A stretch of DNA of 64,000 nt from Trachythela sp. YZ-2020 (lineage: Eukaryota > Cnidaria > Anthozoa > Malacalcyonacea > Clavulariidae). Location: the NCBI GenBank assembly GCA_016169945.1, contig JADLSH010000279.1:2728001-2792000 (forward strand). Direction: 5' to 3'. The position numbers and the translations under genes were made by a program. Numbering within the stretch: the first letter of the stretch is position 1; every line of letters starts with the position of its first letter. The notes beneath the pieces were generated by a model, which searched no databases, was not told where the DNA came from, and was given only the letters and a program-made list of their open reading frames with translations. Shown piece after piece: positions 3,527-64,000 of the stretch.

Positions 3527-6500
3527 AAGCTTTTGTTTTCGTTTTTCTATTTTTTTCAATTTAAATTCCCCCTATTACTATTTTTCTCCATAACCCTTAC
3601 ATTTGTACTCATATAAAACGCAACATATATATATTCGAGTAGAACGTCGTACCAAGGCATATTTTAACATATATAAAAATACTGGCCCCCCCCCCAGCTC
3701 CTCTTGATGGCCCCCCACAACACAAAATTGGCTCCTGGGCCTGCCCTTTATATATATATCTGAGCAAATAAGAATTCGTTTTCTTTAAAAAAAAAAAAAC
3801 AATATTAAAGAACGTCGTACCCAGGGACAGAAACTAAACACGGTCCTAGCCTACGATTGGGCACATATTTGTGCGGGCAGAATTTCAACAAACTTACTTT
3901 GTCCGAGCTCTGACTCGACTTGTCCGCTCCCTCACTGCACCCTGTTCTCCGTGTTTCATCTATACATTTACCCCTCCCTTTTTCAAGAGACATCCCTTTT
4001 GCGATAATTTATTAGTTTTCTGCAGTGGTACCACCATTTCAACGGGGGGCACTTGGCATACGAGATGGTAGTTTTGGCAAAAGCTGTAGGTCTCTTTCAT
4101 CAGCCCCTTTGTTGGTTCCCGAGCAGGATGGGTGATGCGGTAATCTGAGGGAGTCTAATGCTGATAACCAGCAACCAAGGCTTGAGAATGTCCTCCAGCA
4201 TGGCAGCCAGGAAATCTTTTTGACCTCACAGGAAATTTTTAGGAAAAGCAAGAAATGAGGTTTGACAAATTTATAAATTTCAACGTCGTTACCATATTCA
4301 GACTTTCATGCAGTATATTAATATCCTGCAAGCTGTTGTTTAATTGCTAAATATTTGTGTGGCATTTTTTGTTTCATATAATAGTTTATATTTTAAGTAT
4401 TTTTTGGAACCCCGTTATTGGAGAACTATCTCTGTGTGGAAATTCCAGCCATTTGTAACTACTTTATATATAAAATCATGTACACCTATTGCAATGGAAA
4501 ACTTGTAAAATAAAATAAAATAAACATTCAATGTGGCGTAATCCAAAGTGATACAAGAGGCATGTTAAAATAGTAAAATACAATAAGAAATTATAAGAAA
4601 AAACCCGCGTTTCATGTTTTGGAATGCTTTTGTGTCACCATAGGCCATAGCCTGGCATTTTCTGGGGTGGAGAACACGCCCATAAGTATATATCCATCAA
4701 ACAACACCAAGACACAATTCACATTTTAATATAAATCACAAAAACTATTTAACATTATACCAAGCCAAGTTTTACTTTGTAAACATGATTAAATATACTA
4801 ATATAGAATAGCTAAACAAATAGTTTGACTCTGACCAGTTAATGCAAACGACCCCAATTACAGATTAAAGCTGATAACACTAACCTATATAGACTACAGT
4901 TATATATCACGAGCATTCTAAGATCTTTATAGCTTTGTAGGAATGAAACCAACAAGATAACAGGACCACAAATTGAAGCAATGTCATCTCTACACTTCCT
5001 CACGGGGTCTTTCTGGTACACTAAATGGAAAACAAATATCTGGTGTTAGTCGTTTTTGAATGGCACAAAACTTACGTAACAGTTTATTCATTTATTCGTT
5101 CAAGTGTACCTTAACCTTTTTACCATATGGGCGAGGTTGTTCAAAATGTTGACAAGCCTAATTGCCTGTAAATACGATCCCCGTTGCCGAGAAGTCTAGG
5201 CTAGTAAAATTGTTTAGATGTATTGAAATACGTCATAAGTATTGTAGAAAAGTGAAACGAAGTTAAAAGAATCCACCAGATTTCGATAGAAAAAGCTTGT
5301 TGCTAACCAACATTCACAGCATTGGACAAACTAGGGATGCCTAGTCACTATTGTTCCAGCTTACAGAAGCATCGATCTATTTAGCTATGAAATCGAGCGC
5401 ATTCTTAACCAATTTTGAATCATATATTGCTTCATTCTTCCCTGTTCTTCGTTGCCTTTACCAATCTCTTGACTAGATTTGTGCCTTCCTCAATTACAGT
5501 TCATCCAGCTATAAATTCGGTGTTCGACTATGCACGTATTTCCTTGAAACAGGCTCACCAAACCCCAATTCAGGTACGATGTCGTCTTTACTCCCTTCTC
5601 CAGAAAAGCCCAATGGTTGTATTTGTTCTATTCTATTCTTCATTAGACTGGAACAATGGAAACTAGGCATGTAAGTTATCCAAAGTTTTCAATTGGGTTC
5701 CAACGTACAGTGTAATTATACCAACGTTACGGCTAATGTGGTAAACTTCGAAAGTGTGAACATTAATAATATTGATGCTATTCCTAGGCGCCGATGTATT
5801 CGGACTTGTATCTGTAATTTGTCGTAATATATAAAGAAAGCTTTGAATAGTTCTTGTAATGTTTAATGTTTAACTTAGGAATTTTTGGAAAATGATATCA
5901 GCAGTTTGGCGGTTTTCCACTAGCGAATTTTGTCGTGGGATCTGACAACTTTTTTGTCTTTAATATAGCATTCGGCTGGAAAAAATTAGATATCTGATCA
6001 ATTATTTTCAATTGTATTTTAACAAAAGGAATGTCGTTTCGCGTAAAGAAATGGCCCTTTGTATAAATGTTAAATTCAGTTAAAACAATGAGTGACTGGA
6101 TGGCATGGAGAACAGTGGGATTTTCAAAACAATGAAAAGACAATGAAACATTCCGATCACTGGTTGTGACTGGATGGCACTAATTGTCATTTCGCGTCAA
6201 GAAATTCGCTAGTGGAATTCGCTGTCAATTTTGAACAACCCAAACCCTAGAAATAAAAAAAATATTTTAATAGTTCGCCTCTATTTATATAGATATATCC
6301 CTATTTGAACAAATAAATGGGGTATCGCTAAAACCAGTAGCTAGAGTTATCTGATATGTTATATTGGAAAAGATCAATAGCTTCGCAAGTCCTGTACCAT
6401 CGATATTAATAAACTATGATACCTGAGTATTCCATTGACTTGAATAAATACTCTTGGTTTTAAATTGCTGTTTGATATGAAATTAAACATTGCAGGATTA

Positions 6501-7271
6501 CTACAAAGCCAGCTATAACCTTTAAACACGTTATCATAAAATAATATTACAGAAATTATGGTATGAATTATAATTATAGTATAAGTTTTGGGAGCTTATA
6601 ATCCAAATTGCATTTTCAGTTTTAACTACATTTTCGACATGGTATTAATATGTTTCTACTAATTTCCTAGAGGAAAAAATATAAATATATTTTGGGGAGC
6701 ATAAAAGGCGACAATGGTGACTGTAAAAATTCATTCTAAATGACAAAATGTTTGCTTATATTATCATATAGTGACGATTCAGATCTTTAAAAAATAGAAA
6801 TTTACCTATTGTAAATATGATAAAATTAAATGTGTAAAGCACAGTACTCAAGTGCTTTCTCGTTCGTTTTGTTGTCATGAATTAAAGAGCATAGAAAGTT
6901 GTAGATATAAAATAGAGCTCTTATATGTAAACATTATATTGCCTAAAACATTAAACACCAAAATAGTGTTAGAAAATTTGTACCTCTCGGAGAACAAACT
7001 GCTGAAACTGGTATTCGATGTTTCTCCATTTGAAAGCCAGCATCTTCTATCCCAGATTTGAATACATTTACCTCCGAAGATGGCAAGTTACACTGTATTG
7101 CCATAGACATGTCAGTATAGTATTACATGTCATCACTAGTTAATACTGGTAAGTCAATAAAGGACACATTTTAGACGGAACTTCCCTATAATTTAGTTTC
7201 AATTTTATTGCCAAGTCTTTCATGACTTCAATGATTTAAGAAATGTGATAAAGTAATACCTGCACCTTCTG
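3527..7271. other. Repeat-rich intergenic spacer
   Basis: No coding region can be supported. It holds C-run and AT-rich decayed repeats (3640-3830, where an ACGTCGTACC motif occurs twice) and an inverted-repeat remnant at about 5300-5703. The remnant's right end (AACTAGGCATG, TTATCCAAAG, CAATTGGGT) matches the better-preserved element at 20513-20744. The small open frames here lack codon structure or homology that I recognise. Confidence 0.5.
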
Positions 7272-7289
7272 TTTATTGAGTGATTTATT
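7272..7289 (-). other. Polyadenylation signals of LUC7L3
   Basis: Two AATAAA hexamers on the minus strand (7272-7277 and 7284-7289) lie about 70-85 bases after the LUC7L3 stop codon. This is a fitting place for 3' end formation and supports 7358 as the true end of the gene. Confidence 0.6.
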
Positions 7290-7357
7290 TGCCAAGAGCA
7301 GACCGGACCCCACCAGACTTGTTCAACTTTGTGTTGGCTACAAGGCTAAACAACAAC

Positions 7358-10300
7358 TTACCTCGTATCATCTTGACTACCTTGCGGGATTTCTTTCTCC
7401 GCTGAATCTTCCACCATTTTCGAGGTACTTTCTCCCACCATTTTTTCATCTTTCGAAGAACTTATTTCTTGGCCCTGTATTTCATTACCTTCATTCTTTT
7501 CTTCCTTGGACTCATCTCGTCGGCGACTCTCGTCACTCTCTCGGCGACTCTCGTCATCTCGTCGGCGACTCTCGCCACTGTCTCGACGGCTGTCGTCATC
7601 ACGTCGACGACTCTCGTCTTTTTCTCGGCTACGACTTCGTTCATCATCGCGGTTGCTTCGTTTCCGATCACGATCCCGACTTCGGCTCCGATCTCGTCGG
7701 CGAGCTCTACCCTGATGCCGGTCACGATCCCTATCCCGTCTATCGCGGTCACGATCTCTCCTACCACGGTTTTGGCGATCAGCTTCACGGTCTTGGCGAT
7801 CACCGTGACGACCTCGGCGATCACCGTCACGATCTCGGGGATCGCCGCCACGATCTCGGGGATCGCCGTCGCGATCTCGGTCCTTGTCTGAACGTCTATC
7901 TTTATCCTCTGGACGTCTATCTTTATCCTCTGGACGTCTATCTTTATCCTCTGGACGTCCGTCTTTAACTTCTGAACTCTTGTCCTTCTCGCCTTCAGCA
8001 GGACCTTTAGGACTGGGCTTCTTCAGCCATGGACGGTTCTTAACATAAACACATTTTTTTAGAATTCGTAGATCGGACACCATACCACAGAGTAGAGATC
8101 ATACAGAGGTGTAACGGGTGTACCCACTTATGCTTCAGACGCTTGCCGAGCATGAGCATTAAAGTGCACGATTCAGATGGCTGCTCGCTTTTAACTGCAG
8201 TTTACCTTTTAGAAGTGCGTAAAAATGCGAAAGACCTTAAGATTGTGAAACTTTAAAGAGCCGAAAATGTTGGGAACTTGGGGAATGTTGGGAACTTGGA
8301 ATGGGGGGAACTTGCCGAGCATGCGCAGTTGATCATTTTTTGCCAGGCCGCCTGAAATCAGGTGGGTACACGAAAACGTAAGTCTCCCAAGTGTTTACGA
8401 CGGCCCGTTCCACCTCTGTATGATCTCTACTCTGTGACCATACTTAATAAACTAAACTAATTTTATGTATACTATAATAATAATAATAATAATAGAATTT
8501 TATTACCACATTTGGCAAATAATTACAGTGGTATTAGTATAGGAAATAGCACGGTTCGAGAAGTATTACTCTCGGTTTCAGTTTGCTTTTCAAAACGCGA
8601 TTCTAATTACTACAATGTCTAATGTCAATTTGTAATTCGGAACGTACTTTGGAACCTAGGTTGCAAATTTGGAACATTTGTTGTGTAATTTCATTGGAAG
8701 TTGGCTAATTAGTAAACAACGTTACGTAATTTTGAACTAATATTAGAATCGCGTTTTGAAAAGCAAACTGAAACCGAGAGTAAAATTATACAGTAATTTT
8801 CCTTCCAGCACTTTCTTATTATTTACATCTTTATTTATAGTGTTCTTGTATATAGTATTGGTTTTTATGTTTGAAATCCCAGTTGTATTATCAACCCTGT
8901 GTATATTTTCATGGACGGTTCTACGAGTTCTCAACTTTTCCGTCCCTTATTGATCCAGTGTTATATACTACAGAAGGAAACTAAACTAACTCTATTTGTA
9001 CTGAATACTGTAGCTCGATCAGTTCTTCCTGTAAGGGACATCCTTAATCGTCTGGAATTTAATGAAATTTGCTTAAATAGTGGAATATCAACGCTTTCGC
9101 GGTCGTAAAATCATTGCTACAGCTTTGTTACGCAGTTAATCAGCAATCATTCAAAGTCTTTTAAAAATTATTGGGGTATGGCCTATGGGCGGTTGCCACT
9201 AACACATCGTGAAAACATCATTTGTACACACCACTTCCCTCCCTCCTCCCAGAAAACATGCTATATTTATACCCTTATAGTTGACTGTGTGCTGTGTCTG
9301 AAAATACAATAAGAACTTCGACGTTTCGAGCGAGGGTCCTTCAACTGGAAGTTAGTCTGGAAGTCAGTTTGACTAACTTCCAGACGAAGGGCCTTCGCTC
9401 GAAACGTCGAAGTTCTTATTGTATTTTTCAGGTAGTTTTACACAACAGTCAACCGCCGTATATTTGCTACACTCTACCCACACTGGCACCGCACGTTCGA
9501 GATATACTCCATACTATCTACCTTAAGTTCTTCCACAGCAGCTTTAATCTGTGCGTATCCTTTGTGCTGTTTTCCTTGCAAATGATCATCAACACGAATC
9601 TGAGCATCACCAATGATAAGAAATGCTCCACAAACCTCACAAACCTCCATCAACTTTTCTTGACCATTGAAACTTGGGTCTTTGACCTGTATTTCAAAAT
9701 GTACATCGTAAAAATAAGGTACCTGATTCCCTTATGTTGGTCCTTAACATGCAGAATGGAAGTCTGGATATGAAATAATATACCAGAAATAATACATAGA
9801 ATTCATACTCAAATCATAAATCGTTCGTGGCTTTAGATTTACTCAATTTGGAAACACCATCTATTTGCACAGGATTGCACATGACTGGACAATGTCAATC
9901 ACAGTGCCTCATAGGAGTAGCCTGCGTGGCAGACGGTCCCGCGGCGGAACACCCTTTTTGCTACATAGGACAACAAAATCAGGGTTCGTGCAAGTTCACA
10001 ACAAGAAGATTTAAGGACTTTTCAAGGACTATTCAAGCACTAAAATGAAAATTTTCAAGGACTTTTTATTGTCTTGCAAACAAAACACAATCCAAATATA
10101 AGAAAAAATATAGTGGACTCTGATAAAATGATGGCGGCTGAACGATAACCATGGTAAAAGAATGGAAGACAAGCGACTTTCTTACAGTATTTACTAGATA
10201 AAATTTATTTGCTGTTTGTAATGCGGAACACAGTGCGTGACAAAAAACAAACAATGTTTTTTTTTTACATTTGTGAAAAGCTATGCTTCAAAGTTCGAAC

Positions 10301-37523: not shown

Positions 37524-38093
37524 CTATTGAAGCATAAGCGCTTGTAAATTTTGCCCCAAAATAATGTCTTTGACAGCGTGAAAGACAAAGCGAATGTTCT
37601 CCGTGTCGGTAGCGGTTGTGAAATGATGAAACAACGCTTTGCTGCGATCCCTTCGACGGCTATCGAACATTTGTAGTATAAAATCTTGAACGGTGCCTAA
37701 ATTATGTGGGTCGCCTTGGTAATTTGGAAAGTACATTTTGATCGACGTATGCTTGACTTTGTTTTCTAGTAAATCAGTTTTGTTTAAGAAGAGAATAACG
37801 GACACATTAACAAAGAATCTATTGTTCACGATTGTTTCAAAAATATCGCAAGATTCTACTAAGCGGTTGGTCATCCTGTCCTCCATCAGGACTTGGTCGA
37901 AAGCGCTGGATGAGACGAGGAATAAAATTGCGGTGACTTTATCGAAACATTGAAACCACTTGGCACGTTGAGAGCGTTGTCCACCAACGTCCACCATACG
38001 AAAGGGAACTCCTTTGATGTCAAAGTCGTGTTCCACAATGCCTTTCGTTGCTTTACGCGCATGGAGCGCGTCTTGCTTTGAAGGCAGGAAGTC
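37524..38093 (-). CDS. Second, distal terminal exon of the G-alpha-12/13 gene (exon 3b)
   Basis: A 570-nt exon with a clean acceptor (TTATTTCAG before 38093) and its own stop, identical in length and phase to the proximal exon 40597-41166. It encodes 189 residues: switch I region RKATKGI, switch [18 protein letters not shown], guanine motif NKTD, and the C-terminus ending ALMLQ. I count about 31 differences from the proximal exon (about 84% identity, no gaps). No G-alpha first exon (GAGESGKS) exists between 38094 and 40596, so it must be spliced to the upstream exons at 43573-44025 and 42948-42998 to make a full protein. It could alternatively be an incomplete gene duplicate, but the intact frame and mostly conservative changes argue for use. 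Confidence 0.82.
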
Positions 38094-39249
38094 CTGAAAT
38101 AACAGAGGACAGTAAGACATGATTAGACCTATTTATACTAAAGAACGGATTATGCTTCTGACGGATCGTCCATCTTAGTGTAAACATAAGCCAACGGATG
38201 ATCGGTCTCAGGGCCTTTTTAACATATAAACTGGGGGAGGGCAAGGCCCCAGCCCCCACATTACTCAGTGAACTCTTTTGGAACCCCAGTGAAGGCCCCT
38301 TTGTCTAGAATATAAGCAAAACAGAGAAGAACGATTTTCGAATATGTTAATTAATGTAGGAAAATCGAGCCAATTGACACTTTCTACTTGTTGTGCGAAA
38401 TTATATTAAACGGTCAAAACAATTCACGGATGAAATTGATTAGCATCGCTCATAGATATAGCATCGCTCGGTCATGGGCGTGTCTCTCCCCATATACACG
38501 AAAATTGACATTATAAATATAATGGACAGTTATAGAAATTTTTTCAAACATGTACAGATATTAGAATATGATTTTCTACATTCAAAGCGTTATATTATTA
38601 ATCATACAAAATAATCTATTTTAATATCATACAACTCACGCTATCTATGGTTTAAAGTAAGTAAATAATTAGACCTTTATAGTATAAATTAATGTTAACA
38701 GCTATACTAAACAGCAAGTTTATGCTTTCGAAGTTATAGCACGAATATTAAGGCGCGCCAAAACATTCTAGTACAAAAATGTGACATTTTTTCCGTGAAA
38801 AGTTGGATAAAAAGTTGACCCAATTCAAGTAGCACCGGTTTCAAATTTTCGCGGCGAAATTTGTCACTATAAACCAATCGGGTTGCTTTTCGATTTGCTT
38901 CGCCCTAAAACTGTTTCGCTTTGTTCTTCCACTATCGAATTTTCTCGCACGAAACAGCAAATAGAGCATGCTTGATGCTTCGCTCTAAAGTGATAAAACT
39001 ATACAAACCTAGCCCTAGGTCTGTGGTCTCGGCTGGGTTGAACGATATTTTCGCAACGGTTTTTTTGTAAAACTCTATCGAGGTGCTTGTAATTACGACG
39101 TTACGTTGGTGTATTTTATTCATTTCGTTATATTCATTGTTGACAAATGTCAACAGTGGACAGTGGCGTGACGTAAGGTCAAATGACGATCTCGTACTCG
39201 TAGTCACTGCTATTAAAAAGCCCCTTATAACATCAACTGTAGAGGTTTG

Positions 39250-39922
39250 CACCATCACGTGACTAAATTCTAAAATCTTTAACGTGCAACCTATCAAGCT
39301 GGCTGTTAAACATGTTTTGTATGTCATTATAACAAGTATTCATAACAAATTTCAAGTCGATACAATTATTCCCTCGCGAGTTTAAAAGGTTTGAATAATT
39401 CGTATTTTCTAATACTGTTAAAAAGTACGTTTTTTCCAAACCTAACGCGAAAAACTTAGATTAGCTTTTAAAAAGCAATATATAGTATCATAGTATACAG
39501 AATATAGACATTTGTTATAAAACACATCTTTTCTTGAGCATTTGTATTTTGGCCGCCATGTTGGATGGCAGGTGGATGCCATGATGCCATCCAACTTGGC
39601 CGCCAAAAACAAATGCTTAAGGAAAGACGTGTTTTATTAGACATATTTATATTCTGTTTACTATGATACCATATGTTGCTTTTAAAAGCTAAATTGAGTT
39701 TTTCGCGTTAGGTTTAGAAAAAAACGTAGCTTTTATAAATGGCATTTGAAAATAATGCTTACGTCAGCAATACGAATTATTCAAACCTTTTAAACTCGCG
39801 AGGGAATAATTGTATCGACTTGAAATTTGTTATGAATACTTGTTATGACATACAAAACATGTTTAACAGTCAGCTTGATAGGTTGTACGTTAAAGATTTT
39901 AGAATTTAGTCACGTGATGGTG
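39250..39922. repeat. 673-bp long inverted repeat between the two G-alpha terminal exons
   Basis: Left arm from CACCATCACGTGACTAAATT (39250) is mirrored to 39922. Matching inner blocks include ACATGTTTTGTATGTCAT, AATTATTCCCTCGCGAG, AAACCTAACGCGAAAAAC and TTGGCCGCC, with a centre near 39575. Arms are about 310-330 bp with some small gaps. The RNA would fold into one long hairpin. Confidence 0.88.
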
Positions 39923-40596
39923 AACAGTAACAGATAAAAATATTGTCTATTGTCACGTGAAATTGGCTGAACTAATTGAAACTTCAAATAATCGTTAGTT
40001 AGTCATAAGCGACGGTAACAATGCAATGTATAATAAAACAATTACTGAATAAGTTTCTGCAATATCCTAATTTATCAAGGTCTTGGTTTATAGTGTTATG
40101 TGCTTCGTTGATAACATTTATCTTGACCTTGATAATTTCAGATATCACAAAACCTGAAATTTTTGGAAACATCCTAAAAAGCCGTAAATTGTTCGTGTGC
40201 AGATGCAAAATCTTCTGTGAACTGTGAAGCCTAGAATGGAAACTTGTGTGTACCACAGAATCGGAAAGTCCTATTGGTCACAGAAAATTACATTGTTTGA
40301 ATTAGAATTTCAATGAATGTGTCAAGGTTCACTTGAAAGTTCTTAAAAAAGTTACGGCATCACCCCCAGACCATTACAAGAATCCTTGGCTAGTTTTGAA
40401 TGGACTGTACATTAACGTACATTAACTACAAGTCATTGCACTGCCCCATTGCAAGACTCTAACTCTCTCTACGGTTGGTTTTGAATGAGCTGCATATCGA
40501 GTTCAATCCACTGTTAGATCTGTATAGCATAAAATTGTCACAGTCGAGCATGATGTATTCATAAATACACAACGAATAAAAGTAGCTTCCACAGGG

Positions 40597-43500
40597 TCAC
40601 TGAAGCATCAATGCTTTTAGGTTATACTGAAGAATGGTGTCTTTCACTGCATGGAAGACAAACTTTATATTCTCTGTATCAATGGCTGTCGTAAAATGAT
40701 GGAACAGCGCTTTAGACCTCTCCCGTCGTTTGCTATCAAACATCTGTAGTATAAACTGCTGTACATCGCTAAGCTTGTGAGGGCTGCCTTGATAGTTCGG
40801 GAAAAAGTTCTTGATGTTTGTCGCCAGGACTTTCTTCTCAAGTAAATCAGTCTTATTCAAAAATAATATAATAGAGACATTACTAAAGAACTTATTGTTC
40901 ACAATTGTTTCAAAAATATCACACGACTCCACGAGTCGGTTAGTTGTCCTGTCCTCCATTAGGACTTGATCGAAAGCACTCGAGGAAACGAGGAATAGTA
41001 TTGAGGTGACTTCCTCAAAACATTGAAACCATTTGGCTCGTTGAGATCGCTGCCCTCCAACGTCAACCATTTTGAACGGTATTCCTTTGATGTCAAACTC
41101 ATGCTCCACTATGCCTTTGGTTGCCTTTCTCGCATGTAGGGCGTCTTGCTTTGTCGGCAGGTAATCCTGCAACGAAAACATAGAACTGTGGTCAAACTCC
41201 AAGAGATAGTAATCAAAGTTGCTCGTGAAGCAAAGATTAGGGTAGTTTCTTTAAGAAAAATTTTCAAAACAATGAAAATTTACTTGAAAATGTACATTTT
41301 TTCATCGAACAAGTTCAAATTTTGCAGCTAAAATGCATGTTGCCAATTTGGGTACAGTATTTTAAAATGGTTTCAATGGTGGAATACCGCGTAAAGACAC
41401 TACGACAAAGCCGAAGACTGCGAAAGGCAACCAATCGACATAGTGGCTAATAATGAAAAGAAATACAAATACAGTAGTTAATACAATAATTATATTAACA
41501 ATATTGATTACCATTCTCAGGAGACATTTGACCATGGACCACATAAACATACATCAGGTTTTCTACAATTCTACCTTGTCTGGCATTAGACAGAGTAAAA
41601 CACTAAAGTAAGGCGCATTTGGGCACATTGCCAGCTAATGGGTTAATGAACCTGTGGCTATCTGAATTCGGTTTCCTCTAGATCAAGGCGATTCGGTTGC
41701 CAAAGGCGCGCTGAACACTCTTAGCACAGTAAAGCATGCTTGAAATGATGGGGCACTGACAAGAAGTCAAAATATCTGATGTACGAGAAACAATATATTT
41801 GAACAAATTTAACGCTTGTACTGTTATTTTGTTGGTTTTCTCAGAATGCTATTAGTGAGGTCAGCCCTCAGCTCAGCCCCCAACACGCTGTATGAACCAG
41901 GCCTATTTAATATTGTCAAATTAGACCAGGAATTGGTACTGATTCTTTCTTTTCAAAACAATGAAGTTAATAGAACTTATCAAAGGTTGTTCATGAAATT
42001 TCGCATGAACTTAAAAACATAATTTCATCATTGAATATTAAAATTCCTGTCATAAAGGCAGCACCATTTTTGTCAAAACAAATTCACAATTAAGATTTTA
42101 AAGTTCAAAAAAAGAATTCTTTTTGTCTGTGGTACAAAACTTAAGCACTCTTTTATGGTTAATAACAGCCGAAGTTAATCTTTTAAACGACTTCAAATTA
42201 GGTAAAACAGTCCAAATTTTAGTGGCTATTACTCGAAACAGACAGCTGACTTAGAGGGTGTGAAAAAATATTGTTAGACAACAATCTGGGGCGTTATTAA
42301 TGAATAATAAAAGAAAAATATGTCGGAATATTCATAGGCAAAGTTAATTGTGACGCCATGCAATCAAATTCTCACGAAAATTGCCCCGTCTAGAGCGGAA
42401 TAACCGCTTTAAAGCTTCCTTTGACAATATTTAGAACTAGAAAACATCACAACAAATTCATAAATACGGTATACTGCAAGGCAAAAAGCCCACAAAAATT
42501 AAAATTGTGCTCATATTTCGCTAGAGATTTGCTGAATATTATCATAAAGAAGCTAGCGTGTGTTTGATAATATCAAAACAATATCAAATCCGAGACGAAA
42601 TATTGCTCTTTTAACAAAATTTGTCATTTCAAGACAGCTTTGCGACCATGTGTTAGCGTTTAAGCCCACCTTAGTTAAGAGCTCCTGAGCAATTCATTAA
42701 ATGTGCGATAATATAGAGCAAAAATTAACGCCATCTTGAGTTGAATGTGGCTAGTCGCATTAAAACTTCATTTAAACCAATGCCCTCCTTCTATTTTTTA
42801 ATTAAATAAAAACAAAATCAAGCACGAAATCGCACGAATATTCGAATTCCAGCGTACAAGGCCTATATTTGCACTCTTTTATGGCTTAATATTTCCAAAA
42901 TATTAATGCTAATCTACTTAAAGAATTTATAAAACTCTCTAACTCACCGGCTGCCCGACTCTATGCAGCTGATCCAAGAAATATTTCGTTGAATCGCCCT
43001 AAAAAAACGAGAAAACATAACCGTAAATTTGCAATATTTCGAAAACCGCGAGCTCGCAAGAATACATCGGAATATTCTAATTTGCAAATTGCCACAATAT
43101 ACAGCCAAATTAATATTTTCGTATCACAAAACAGCAAATTAAAAGACTAAACTTTAGCAGATGGTCGAGATACTTTAAATGTTTATTAAAGTATTATTAG
43201 AGAGGGACAGACAGCAACGCTCGAAGGACAAACTTCAGGAAAGCAGACTTCAATTTAGCACGTTCGTGACGTGACAGTGTCCAAGCCGAAATATGTAGTT
43301 TCGTTGCAGTGTGGCGGAACTCGGAAGGCGATCAAAGATCGAACAACGATCAATGTTCGAGTTCAATTTTAAGCTGTTTAGATCCCACAATAGACCAAAC
43401 ACCATATTAAAAGGCTTTCATTAAGCAATAGCGTACATTATATTAACCCAAACCCGATGTTTACAAAACGATTTTATTGGAATACCCGATTATGTAGTTA

Positions 43501-44025
43501 ATATAGTTCTATTTGTCTAAACAACGCCATATTTTCATACAATTAATACTGCAATTTGAAACAAAAACCTACCAATTGAAACTCTCTTCGTCTGTCATAA
43601 GAGGTCTGAATACCCTCATCCTGCCATAGCTTGTTCACGGCGTCCACGTATTGAAGAAATAAACTCGTTTCGATCTTCTGTGGTGCTTGGAAGTCCAGTA
43701 TAGTCCGAGCATATCTTTGATTATTCGGGTCACCCCATTCGATGCCAAGCTTTCGCCTAGCATCAGCAAGCACCTTCATTCCTTTTAAAATATTACTATA
43801 GACTATGGGTCTGAATTCAGCCAATGCACCAACATCATAATCTTCGCCGTGAATAATTCTCATTTGCTTGAGAAAGGTGCTTTTGCCAGATTCACCGGCG
43901 CCCAAGAGCAAGATCTTTACTTGCCTTCGAAATCGCTCCTTTTCCCGACTTATCTTTTTATCAATCTCCTTCGACCTCTGCTTTTGCCGCTTTGTCTCCT
44001 CATCGTCACAACAGGTGAAAACCAT
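40597..44025 (-). CDS. GNA13: Heterotrimeric G-protein alpha subunit, G12/13 class
   Basis: Exons 44025-43573, 42998-42948 and 41166-40597 join in phase 0 into 357 residues. The N-terminus has Cys5-Cys6 (likely palmitoylated) and no Gly2, so no myristoylation is expected. The P-loop GAGESGKST is at 42-50, with RRREFQL before the exon 1 junction and the short exon [17 protein letters not shown]. Switch I has R181 and T184, switch II is DVGGQR (203-208), the guanine-specificity motif is NKTD, then TTAIDT, and the LMLQ end is diagnostic of G12/13. These proteins couple GPCRs to RhoGEFs and actomyosin control. Vertebrates split the class into GNA12 and GNA13; this is pre-duplication or simply G12/13. 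A second terminal exon lies at 37524-38093. Introns 1 and 2 hold family D fragments and AT-rich spacer. Confidence 0.95.
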
Positions 44026-48721: not shown

Positions 48722-48892
48722 TAAAGTTTTGATCAAGTTCTATTACTGGATAAAGTTTTGATCAAGTTCTATTTACTAGATAAAGTTTTGATCAAGTTCT
48801 ATTTACTGAATAAAGTTTTGATCAAGTTCTATTACTGAATAAAGTTTTGATCAAGTTCTATTTACTGAATAAAGTTTTGATCAAGTCCCAAG
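48722..48892. repeat. 29/30-bp minisatellite, about 5.7 copies
   Basis: Units TAAAGTTTTGATCAAGTTCT plus ATT(T)ACTGAA repeat head to tail, alternating 29 and 30 bp. Degenerate related pieces occur at 48330-48420 (TTTTGATCAAGTG, GGATAAAGCTTTGGTC). It lies about 120 bp beyond the stop codon of the ankyrin-kinase-RNase gene. Confidence 0.9.
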
Positions 48893-49010: not shown

Positions 49011-52000
49011 TCATGGGTTCAAGCTTAAAGCTTGACGAATATTGCTACGGTGTTCTTCGAACCCCAACTGTTGTACCACACCAAAAACATCAAGCACAAG
49101 TGAAGGATACACCCGAAGGAAAATGTTTTGATCAAGATATTGTTGCGTCTGGAACGATCTTTCTTGCTTGTGAGCGTATGCATTGCGAATGAATCTTATC
49201 AAGTCGATCACTTTATCAGTGCGGTACTTCTTCTGTTTCCAAGCTTTCGTCATTTCTTCATGCAACTCTTCGATAGCCCGATTCCAAGATACAATACTGA
49301 CACTTTGACCAGTGTGTGTCGTCTGCAACCGTTGCTCCAACGCCGAATTGACATGACTCCCCGGATTAACAGCTTCTGGTTGATCGCCAACTGCTTTCAG
49401 AAATTCAATCTTTTTGCTTTCTCTCCAGAGGAAAGGATGCTGGTTGAGGTATGTTGCTGGTGGTCGCTTGGAAGGATCTTTTGTCAAAATAATCTGAAGA
49501 AAGCTAGTGGCTTCTGGACGCAACGCCCGGTCGAGGCTAATGCGCATATCTGCGATCTTCCGCTCAATAACGTGAGGTGGTTCTTCACTTCCTGTCGCAA
49601 AAGGATGTTTGCCCAAAGTGAGAAGATAATGAAGTACCAAACCCAGGGAAAAGATATCTGACTGTTCGGTATGCGGTCTTGATTTCATACTGACCAGCTC
49701 TGGCGCCATCCAACATCGCGTACCTGGTGCCATGGCAACACCACTCCCTCTTGTTGACGTCATTGTGGATAAAGTGGACATATTCTTTGTCAATCCAAAG
49801 TCGGTGATCTTGAAATGCAAAGTTGGATCTGTTGTGTACAAGATGTTTCCAGGTTTGAGATCGCGATGAATGAACTTCTTCTCGTGAAGGAACGCTAAAC
49901 CGTTGATGATCTCTTTGGCAACTTGCCCACATATCGCTGGATTCGATTTCAGAACTTTATTGACATCGTCGTTAACGACGAACTCACGAAGATCACCGTC
50001 CATCAGATCGAGACAGAGGTATTGAAAGAAAGAATCATCGACAGCTTCGTGGCATTTGATGATATTGTCACACTGGCCAGATATAGAAAGCAAGGTTGTG
50101 ATTTCTCGTTTGATCTCTTCGGGATTTATCTTTGCCTTATCAAGTCGTTTTAACGCGTACGCTCGACATTCGATTGTCCCAGATCTGCTGTTAAGGTTCT
50201 CGTCTTTAATTGCGACAAAGACTGAACTGAACGCTCCAGTGCCAATCGGAACTTGACTGGAGTAACGGTAATTCTTCACGACAGTGACTTGAGTATTAGG
50301 GTCAGTTAAACGTTGTGCGTTGTTCAAGTGACGCTTCGGACACGATCGCAGCTTTCGCGTTTCGTTGTGAATACGTAAATTGGACATTCTTCGAAGTAGG
50401 CTGGACTGGGGTGAAGATTGATTTGGGAATGTAGTGGAAGAGGGATTGTTTCCTGTGTCACGTTGCCCAGTTGCTCCGTGTTTGATAAGTAATTCGGCGC
50501 ATTTCTTGTATAGGGAAGGCCCTTTGTCGAGATGCTTGTGGGTGATACCTAAAGGGGTATGTTCCTGAAAATCCACTGCGTTTACGTCCGCGTCGTGACT
50601 CAGAAGAATTTCGACGCTGAGACATATGTATGCTTCTTCAATGATCTTGTGTTTGTTGTGATCACCCATGTCGAGTAGCACATGGAGAAAACTTTGACCT
50701 TTCTTGTTCTGTCGTTTCATATCACTTGGAGATGCAGTGCGTAGCATTTCACATAATAATTTCACCAAAGATGATTGCAGTGAAATATTAAATCCCCAAA
50801 TCAGGCCCCAATTATACGATCCAATTCTAATAGCAATCAGTACTATCTCGATGGCGACGTTGCCCTCTATGTCAGGAATCCAAACGGTTTTCCTGGCTTC
50901 TTCGTTTTCTGAAACTATGCTCTTTAGGTTTTCCAGTAGTTCTACAGCTTTCTGAACAGATCTGCTACTGCCGGTTTCCACAAAACCCTGATCCACGAGT
51001 TCTGCAATTGCAGAGGTTTGAGCAAAGGCGAGGTCGATCGATTTTTTCAAGATAAACAAAACAGGTGTTTCATCGCGATCATTTCTTGCCCGACAAACAG
51101 CGCCATTCCGAAGAAAAATCTTAAACACTGAAGAATTATGAGCGTAATGAAGAGGCATCTCGCCAGAGTTATTTGGAATTCTTAAGCTTGCACCAAACTT
51201 TAGCAATTTTTGGTAAATTTTGTCTTCAGTCATGAATTCTTGTGCCGTTGTAGACAATGCGCATTCATGCAGCACTGTGCAGCCATTCTTGTCTTGCGCC
51301 TTCGCTAACAGAGCAACATGTGTCTGTGGTAATTCTTCGGAAAGCAGATCTAATAGCTCGACTCTATCCTCCACGAACCAATTTGTTTTAGCAACGCGTT
51401 CATTCATAAAACACAGTGCACCATTATCGTCGTTTTCTGCTTTAAATCTACCAAAAATTATGTGCAGAAAAGTTTGTCCATCGTTGTTTACCGCTAGCGG
51501 ATCAACACCAGCTTCCAATAAATATTTCACTAAAGTACGGCAGTCGTAGTTGACACCAGGTAAGGCTGCAACAAAGTGAAGCGGCGTATTACCGTTCGCG
51601 TCCTTGCTGTTACTCAAGTCAGCGAGATTTTCTTTCATTATTTCACAACATTTAATCAAAAGCGTCTCTCGATAATTTGCGACGGAAACTGAAACAACAA
51701 TCTCGCCAATCCCAAGTAAATGGACAATATTTTCGTACAAACACGTGGTGTTAAATATTTTGTAAGCATCTTCGTCTTCGCTATCTTCATCGCTGCTATC
51801 TTCATCCCAATCACGTGTAATAGATATTTTCTTCTTGCCTTCCACACCTGGGATTCCTTGTATGAAATCAAACCATCCGCGACCGGTTATATTACCGAAA
51901 CCAAAGAAATCCATGGGTCGGTGACCAGTTTTCTCCTCGAATTTCTCGCTTAAGTCGCGATAGTCGATCTCCGAGTCGATTTCATCCGCATGGTAAACGA

Positions 52001-52055
52001 TATTATACAGTAACTCTTCCGTAACCTTTATGAGAAATAGGTTTACAGACTCCAT
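49011..52055 (-). CDS. Ankyrin-repeat kinase/endoribonuclease (RNase L-like, KEN domain)
   Basis: Single uninterrupted frame; from the ATG at 52055 it gives 1014 residues. Order: residues 8-80 resemble a LOTUS/OST-HTH fold (weak); 85-100 is an acidic linker (DEDSSDEDSEDED); 153-533 holds divergent ankyrin repeats (NGNTPLH, NGCTVLH, SGEMPLH, KKGQSFLH, DVNAVD); then a basic Ser-rich linker; 596-877 is a protein kinase with GTGAFSSV, K636, E651, HRDLKPGN (730-737), DFG (752-754) and APE (784-786); 878-1010 is a KEN domain following HPFLW. KEN residues line up with human IRE1: Y944, R957-N958 and H962 match Y892, R905-N906 and H910 in identity and spacing. RNase L, which is ankyrin-pseudokinase-KEN, degrades RNA when 2-5A binds its ankyrins; IRE1 has the active kinase. 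This protein has RNase L order with IRE1-like catalytic residues. No membrane segment or signal peptide is visible, so it is probably cytosolic. Ligand and targets are unknown. Confidence 0.93.
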   Translation of the reverse strand: MESVNLFLIKVTEELLYNIVYHADEIDSEIDYRDLSEKFEEKTGHRPMDFFGFGNITGRGWFDFIQGIPGVEGKKKISITRDWDEDSSDEDSEDEDAYKIFNTTCLYENIVHLLGIGEIVVSVSVANYRETLLIKCCEIMKENLADLSNSKDANGNTPLHFVAALPGVNYDCRTLVKYLLEAGVDPLAVNNDGQTFLHIIFGRFKAENDDNGALCFMNERVAKTNWFVEDRVELLDLLSEELPQTHVALLAKAQDKNGCTVLHECALSTTAQEFMTEDKIYQKLLKFGASLRIPNNSGEMPLHYAHNSSVFKIFLRNGAVCRARNDRDETPVLFILKKSIDLAFAQTSAIAELVDQGFVETGSSRSVQKAVELLENLKSIVSENEEARKTVWIPDIEGNVAIEIVLIAIRIGSYNWGLIWGFNISLQSSLVKLLCEMLRTASPSDMKRQNKKGQSFLHVLLDMGDHNKHKIIEEAYICLSVEILLSHDADVNAVDFQEHTPLGITHKHLDKGPSLYKKCAELLIKHGATGQRDTGNNPSSTTFPNQSSPQSSLLRRMSNLRIHNETRKLRSCPKRHLNNAQRLTDPNTQVTVVKNYRYSSQVPIGTGAFSSVFVAIKDENLNSRSGTIECRAYALKRLDKAKINPEEIKREITTLLSISGQCDNIIKCHEAVDDSFFQYLCLDLMDGDLREFVVNDDVNKVLKSNPAICGQVAKEIINGLAFLHEKKFIHRDLKPGNILYTTDPTLHFKITDFGLTKNMSTLSTMTSTRGSGVAMAPGTRCWMAPELVSMKSRPHTEQSDIFSLGLVLHYLLTLGKHPFATGSEEPPHVIERKIADMRISLDRALRPEATSFLQIILTKDPSKRPPATYLNQHPFLWRESKKIEFLKAVGDQPEAVNPGSHVNSALEQRLQTTHTGQSVSIVSWNRAIEELHEEMTKAWKQKKYRTDKVIDLIRFIRNAYAHKQERSFQTQQYLDQNIFLRVYPSLVLDVFGVVQQLGFEEHRSNIRQALSLNP

Positions 52056-54046: not shown

Positions 54047-64000
<9,954 letters not shown>

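Follow-up and report, generated by a model that had tools for sequence, protein, structure and literature searches.

A single open frame on the minus strand of the window, by which we mean the whole 64,000-nucleotide stretch of Trachythela DNA analysed here, encodes a protein of 1014 residues (positions 49014-52055). The ATG is at 52055-52053, the last codon at 49016-49014 and the stop codon at 49013-49011, and the single-exon coding sequence with its stop occupies 49011-52055; the stop-to-stop frame is 1032 codons long, so that at most 18 codons lie 5' of the ATG. Pfam searches, in which every match named here exceeded its gathering score, identified Ank_2 in three stretches (E = 7.8e-15), Pkinase at residues 599-876 (E = 2.3e-46), and Ribonuc_2-5A (KEN; PF06479) at residues 883-998 (E = 5.6e-13). 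The ankyrin-repeat array (residues 125-530; 50466-51683), assigned from the Pfam Ank families and the helices of a predicted model, comprises about eight repeats when counted by eye, some of them with long inserts. It is followed by a protein kinase domain (residues 589-878; 49422-50291) and, at the C terminus, by a KEN ribonuclease domain of the HEPN superfamily (residues 879-1014; 49014-49421). An earlier note, made from the sequence alone, had read this order of ankyrin repeats, kinase, and KEN domain from a 1014-residue frame without giving a strand, and had made the reading depend on profile recognition of the KEN and ankyrin parts; the order is borne out on the minus strand, and both parts are recognised by the matches given above. 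The highest mean Kyte-Doolittle hydropathy over 19 residues is 1.58, so that by hydropathy the protein has no clear membrane segment, as the note had also held.

The ankyrin array is preceded by an acidic linker (residues 82-124; 51684-51812), whose sequence varies more across the family than that of any other part (mean column entropy 2.03), and by an N-terminal domain missing from the note's otherwise correct list of ankyrin, kinase, and KEN domains. Residues 1-81 (51813-52055) are predicted to form a winged helix resembling LOTUS (OST-HTH) domains: the best matches to the predicted fold are the LOTUS domains of TDRD5, Oskar, Tejas, and TDRD7, with modest structural scores. The likeness to LOTUS/OST-HTH proteins (Oskar, TDRD5, TDRD7, MARF1) is one of predicted fold, whereas at the level of sequence no match was detected: none of six N-terminal sequences from the family matched a Pfam entry at E values up to 10, and no PDB sequence match to a 14-row N-terminal profile was found. 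A LOTUS domain fused to ankyrin repeats, kinase, and KEN was not found in the literature searched.

In the portion of a published account used here, LOTUS domains are described as partners of Vasa or of RNA G-quadruplexes, and the MARF1 protein of the mouse as cleaving RNA in a LOTUS-dependent manner and guarding against retrotransposons (PMC8331183). Together with the fold match, this could point to a germline or transposon-control RNase, with a LOTUS-like domain that docks on Vasa or G-rich RNA, as in Oskar, TDRD5/7, and MARF1, and a KEN domain that eliminates RNA of transposon or maternal origin. We regard such a role as highly improbable, the LOTUS assignment being one of fold only and the Pfam matches of the window protein including neither Tudor nor NYN nor any other domain typical of germ granules.

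Catalytic residues of the kinase and KEN domains

Conservation was assessed in an alignment of 99 sequences of 900-1160 residues, the window protein included; 16 of the 115 identifiers P0001-P0115 were dropped for length. The active-type kinase motifs, Lys636, Glu651, HRD 730-732, DFG 752-754, and APE 784-786, occupy the positions at which the note had placed them and align with yeast IRE1. The same is true of Tyr944, Arg957, Asn958, and His962 of the KEN domain, which delimit an RNase active-site stretch at residues 944-962 (49170-49226). The kinase set K636, E651, D732, N737, D752, F753, G754, and E786 is complete in 97 of the 99 sequences, as are the four KEN positions (97/99), and both sets are intact together in 95. 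Ser and Thr are abundant in the activation segment, where Ser763 and Ser767 are each present in 93 of the 99 sequences. Mean column entropy is 0.90 in the kinase and 1.22 in the KEN domain, as against 1.52 in the ankyrin part and 1.60 in residues 1-80.

Compared with solved structures, the kinase-KEN part matched yeast IRE1 (E = 1.3e-38) and human IRE1 (E of about 1e-32), and the KEN part alone also matched RNase L from human (E = 1.4e-4) and pig (E = 1.2e-3). The protein has the combination that characterizes IRE1, an active-type kinase joined to a KEN domain with Y, R, N, and H in place. The PF06479 match and the R-N-x3-H motif identify the nuclease part as a KEN/HEPN ribonuclease, this active site being common to the KEN family as described in the available part of a HEPN superfamily survey (PMC3710099). 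Both domains are predicted from these motifs to be catalytically active, intact motifs being no proof of catalysis.

The family in octocorals and in the Trachythela genome

A whole-protein search scored 7999 candidates and returned 325 matches, the best 120 of which were considered. Among these, 116 (P0002-P0117) scored between 528 and 1566 bits; the match that followed, at 143 bits, was an ankyrin protein without the kinase-KEN part. The organism names attached to family members, among the best 120 of 325, were Paramuricea clavata, Dendronephthya gigantea, and Xenia sp. only. The first is an octocoral according to a taxonomy look-up, and we take the other two to be octocorals as well. A search with the KEN domain only (117 matches from 296 candidates) gave the same three named genera. 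The family is likely confined to octocorals; because the homologue search depends on shared 5-residue words, distant relatives in other cnidarians may escape detection. The note, written without knowledge of the source, had supposed a non-vertebrate protein with possible relatives in other cnidarians; the source is indeed a cnidarian, and the relatives found are those in octocorals. Some family members carry the database labels 'IRE1-like' or 'uncharacterized', and six come with one and the same contig size, 327,056, which suggests clusters of family genes.

The source assembly (578 Mb) gave 23 KEN matches, consisting of ten copies of the family, one IRE1, nine other kinase-KEN genes, two LRR-kinase-KEN genes, and one short match (C390:3505193). 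Besides the window gene, the family copies form a tandem run of four on contig C329, spaced at about 4.7 kb, with one further copy each on C2, C106, C347, C312, and C88; identity to the window protein is 50-79% over the matched pieces. Five copies are open throughout (the window gene, L018, L020, L021, and L023), and the matches to the remaining five are spread over two or more frames, which may reflect pseudogenes, introns, or assembly errors. The note had foreseen neither a multicopy family nor the other kinase-KEN architectures of this genome.

Whole-protein dN/dS for the five intact paralogues was 0.31-0.40 in all ten pairs, pointing to purifying selection, with ratios that are rough because dS is high in several parts. 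The ankyrin part had a higher dN than the kinase in each of the ten pairs (0.12-0.45 versus 0.08-0.14). Since the 99 sequences of 900-1160 residues align over their full length and the dN/dS values hold in ten of ten pairs, the architecture is more than a chance arrangement. The possibility that the window copy is a retrogene or pseudogene was also considered, and is ruled out by its open frame and the same dN/dS range.

A separate multi-exon gene on C327 is the IRE1 of this genome, its joined exons matching mammalian IRE1 with an E value of 5.5e-138; the window family is therefore not the IRE1 gene itself. It might still be an IRE1 relative that has shed the lumenal and membrane parts and serves stress signalling, for example XBP1-type splicing or mRNA decay, rather than defence, given that its kinase-KEN part is closest to IRE1 by sequence and that its kinase, like that of IRE1, is of the active type. 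We judge this very unlikely. The same genome already carries an IRE1 gene clearly close to the mammalian one, and an expansion both in tandem and dispersed would be unusual for a housekeeping stress sensor. The window protein also differs from IRE1 in lacking the lumenal domain and a clear membrane segment, in place of which it has the LOTUS-like and ankyrin front end.

Relationship to RNase L and IRE1

The window protein has the order that characterizes RNase L, ankyrin repeats, kinase fold, and KEN domain, as identified by both Pfam and Foldseek. When the whole-protein model (pLDDT 77.4, pTM 0.52) was used as a Foldseek query, RNase L took ranks 1-19 and IRE1 ranks 20-50; the match to RNase L holds domain by domain and not as a rigid body, as indicated by TM-scores of 0.27-0.30 (query length) and an rmsd of about 21 Å. 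The shared order and the best whole-model match speak for a true early-animal orthologue of RNase L, in which the order would be ancestral, octocorals would have kept the active kinase that vertebrates lost, and the protein would answer 2-5A made by octocoral OAS. The genome has six OAS1_C matches on two contigs (C148 and C198), which fits this reading; three of them (L029, L030, and L031) carry the GGS...DxD nucleotidyltransferase motif, the motif is degraded in L032, and two of the six contain in-frame stops. In the part of a comparative survey available to us, on the other hand, OAS was present and RNase L absent in 12 lower animals, with no octocoral among those sampled, and OAS genes are reported from sponges, corals, and anemones without RNase L (PMC6307210).

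Profile alignment with RNase L gave E values of 5e-25 for the kinase-KEN part and 4e-10 for the ankyrin part. The ankyrin likeness was rejected as evidence of orthology, since 14 of 16 control windows, taken from four other ankyrin proteins, gave lower E values than RNase L, in a comparison biased toward those proteins because they were the query's own matches. The array is thus no closer to RNase L than to such controls, and the residues through which RNase L contacts 2-5A are for the most part replaced. In 121 RNase L sequences (human RNase L and 120 search matches), W60 is present in 121, K89 in 121, F126 in 119, E131 in 120, and R155 in 116. The alignment is clear in the first two repeats, and there W60 corresponds to Asn156 of the window protein (Asn in 97 of 99 family sequences) and K89 to Asn190 (Asn in 98 of 99). 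Later in the array RNase L aligns weakly with the family, and it is less certain which residues correspond; as aligned, F126 is replaced by T in 72 of the 99 sequences (F in 6) and R155 by A in 62, with R absent among the six commonest residues, and E131 is kept in 62. Mutations of W60 and K89 have been used as 2-5A-binding mutants of RNase L, and E131A and R155A in mouse RNase L had only a partial effect, according to the portion of the report drawn on here (PMC5927464).

The two proteins agree in the nuclease and differ in the kinase. The KEN catalytic residues of RNase L are R667 (121 of 121), N668 (119 of 121), and H672 (120 of 121), the sole Asn at 672 belonging to a PDB chain of human RNase L. 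Its kinase is of the HQD type (Q at 484 in 110 of 121) with DFD (D at 505 in 116 of 121), in contrast to HRD and DFG in the window family, where the kinase set is complete in all but two sequences and the pseudokinase signature is lacking. Judged by these motifs, the note's proposal of a kinase unlike the RNase L pseudokinase would be right. The extra LOTUS-like domain at the N terminus is a further difference, and belongs to the window protein.

Trees were used to compare the kinase-KEN part of the window family with the nine other kinase-KEN genes and the two LRR-kinase-KEN genes of the genome, IRE1, and RNase L. RNase L joined the nine other kinase-KEN genes in all four trees that give two support values for this grouping: 82/48 and 99/92 in trees of 27 rows, built with part of the RNase L kinase and with the whole of it, respectively, 97/93 in a tree of 39 rows, nine of them RNase L, and 92/78 in a tree of 37 rows from the KEN domain alone, which omitted the IRE1 rows of mammals and octocorals. 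The window family itself changed sides. In the first tree, with part of the RNase L kinase, the split with the best support (100/98) put it on the same side as RNase L, with IRE1 and the LRR genes opposite; in both full-kinase trees (27 and 39 rows) the inner split with the best support put it on the same side as IRE1, a placement that would suit descent from IRE1. The KEN-alone tree set the window family, RNase L, and the nine kinase-KEN genes against yeast IRE1 and the LRR genes (96/90), and a quickly built tree that excluded L026 and the LRR rows set RNase L and the kinase-KEN group against IRE1 and the window family (SH-aLRT 92).

In AU tests, a clade of the window family with RNase L was unrejected with part of the RNase L kinase (27 rows, p = 0.33), but fell to p = 0.044 with the full kinase (27 rows) and to p = 0.022 with more RNase L sequences. 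A clade with IRE1 alone was disfavoured, at p = 0.055, 0.018, and 0.025 in the same three alignments, and a clade with the nine kinase-KEN genes gave p = 0.042 with the full kinase (27 rows), as against p = 0.28 in the alignment that contained part of it. Each group sits on a long branch, of about 1.0-1.9 changes per column, and separate assembly is therefore favoured but not proven. We conclude that the window gene and RNase L are probably not orthologues, orthology with a response to octocoral 2-5A being in our estimate unlikely. As far as the sequences indicate, the layout was most likely reached apart from RNase L, through fusion of an ankyrin array with a kinase-KEN module. The note had left the choice between an independent and an ancestral origin open; the balance leans toward the first, given the grouping of RNase L with other kinase-KEN genes and the AU values against the second (0.022 and 0.044, with 0.33 in the remaining alignment).

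A proposed mechanism and its meaning

Our preferred reading, which we hold to be somewhat better than evenly probable, is that the window gene encodes a cytosolic, kinase-switched RNA-decay sensor-effector of octocorals that has the layout of RNase L and was assembled independently, with a ligand and an antiviral role suggested by analogy. The LOTUS-like and ankyrin parts would sense a foreign or misplaced ligand, which may be RNA, a nucleotide messenger, or a protein, and which would not be 2-5A bound in the manner of RNase L. Ligand binding would pair two molecules for trans-phosphorylation, each kinase modifying the Ser/Thr-rich activation segment of its partner, as happens in IRE1. Phosphorylation would lock a back-to-back dimer whose two KEN domains together make up one composite active site; this site would cleave single-stranded RNA, leading to a stop in translation or to cell death. 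The switch would be IRE1-like and the layout RNase L-like. We infer the dimerisation, RNA cleavage, ligand, and defence role from what is known of IRE1 and RNase L.

A kinase-KEN module with ankyrin repeats is already a known combination: the table of a HEPN survey, in the part available, includes kinase-KEN fusions that carry ankyrin repeats or CCCH, and the survey mentions KEN expansions in Oikopleura and monocots (Anantharaman et al. 2013, PMC3710099). Within that part of the survey, a LOTUS-ankyrin-kinase-KEN family and its octocoral expansion are not described. No description of the window-protein family was found in searches of the open-licence PMC literature.

RNase L is regarded as a vertebrate effector, and other animals and plants have NLR or receptor-kinase repertoires. 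As a more tentative proposal, to which we give rather less than even weight, the octocoral kinase-KEN module may be a general immune effector placed behind several front ends (LOTUS-ankyrin, LRR with a signal peptide, and probably TPR and macro/KH), much like those repertoires. On this view the module would be old in animals, with RNase L as one late survivor, and the ankyrin-kinase-KEN layout would have arisen at least twice. The Trachythela genome contains OAS-type genes together with a multicopy, motif-intact, RNase L-like kinase-KEN family, and their presence in one genome makes both the targets of invertebrate OAS products and the repeated origin of the layout testable. The layout may have evolved twice, and the active-type kinase of the octocoral family serves as a natural experiment for learning what was given up in RNase L.

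Neighborhood of the ankyrin-kinase-KEN gene

Directly 3' of the gene under study (49011..52055, minus strand) lies a 30-base tandem repeat of 5.6 copies, at window positions 48722-48886. A second array, of 63 copies of an ACA/CAA-type triplet (54261-54450), translates in one reading frame as a long polyglutamine run. Exons of a G-protein alpha subunit, identified by eye, occupy 37524-44025 on the minus strand; because two C-terminal pieces (37524-38120 and 40597-41202, also by eye) are near-identical, the sequence suggests a tandem duplicate.

Companion frames and OAS-type genes

TPR frames were found upstream of the kinase-KEN exons, on the same (minus) strand, at L022:9317-9826 and L024:7015-8903, and the upstream frame at L012 gave no Pfam match. 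At L028, Macro-domain and PARP14-type KH frames (4786-8088 and 9598-9846, minus strand) precede the kinase-KEN frame on the same strand; these may belong to a single spliced gene. The genome that carries the kinase-KEN gene of the window (G000) also holds OAS-type genes (L029-L034; C148:2748125-2758179 and C198:141716-160044), some of whose matches contain in-frame stops.

LRR-kinase-KEN proteins

Two kinase-KEN loci, L010 (2311-4644, plus strand) and L011 (4248-6425, minus strand), each encode a single frame with Pfam matches to LRR_8 (E values of 5.3e-26 and 5.6e-23, respectively) and KEN (5.8e-18 and 5.9e-18). In both, DFD replaces the DFG motif of the kinase, and the KEN tyrosine is not conserved. 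Each frame begins with a hydrophobic stretch, followed by the LRR region, a weak second hydrophobic segment, the kinase, and KEN, a predicted layout that is receptor-like.
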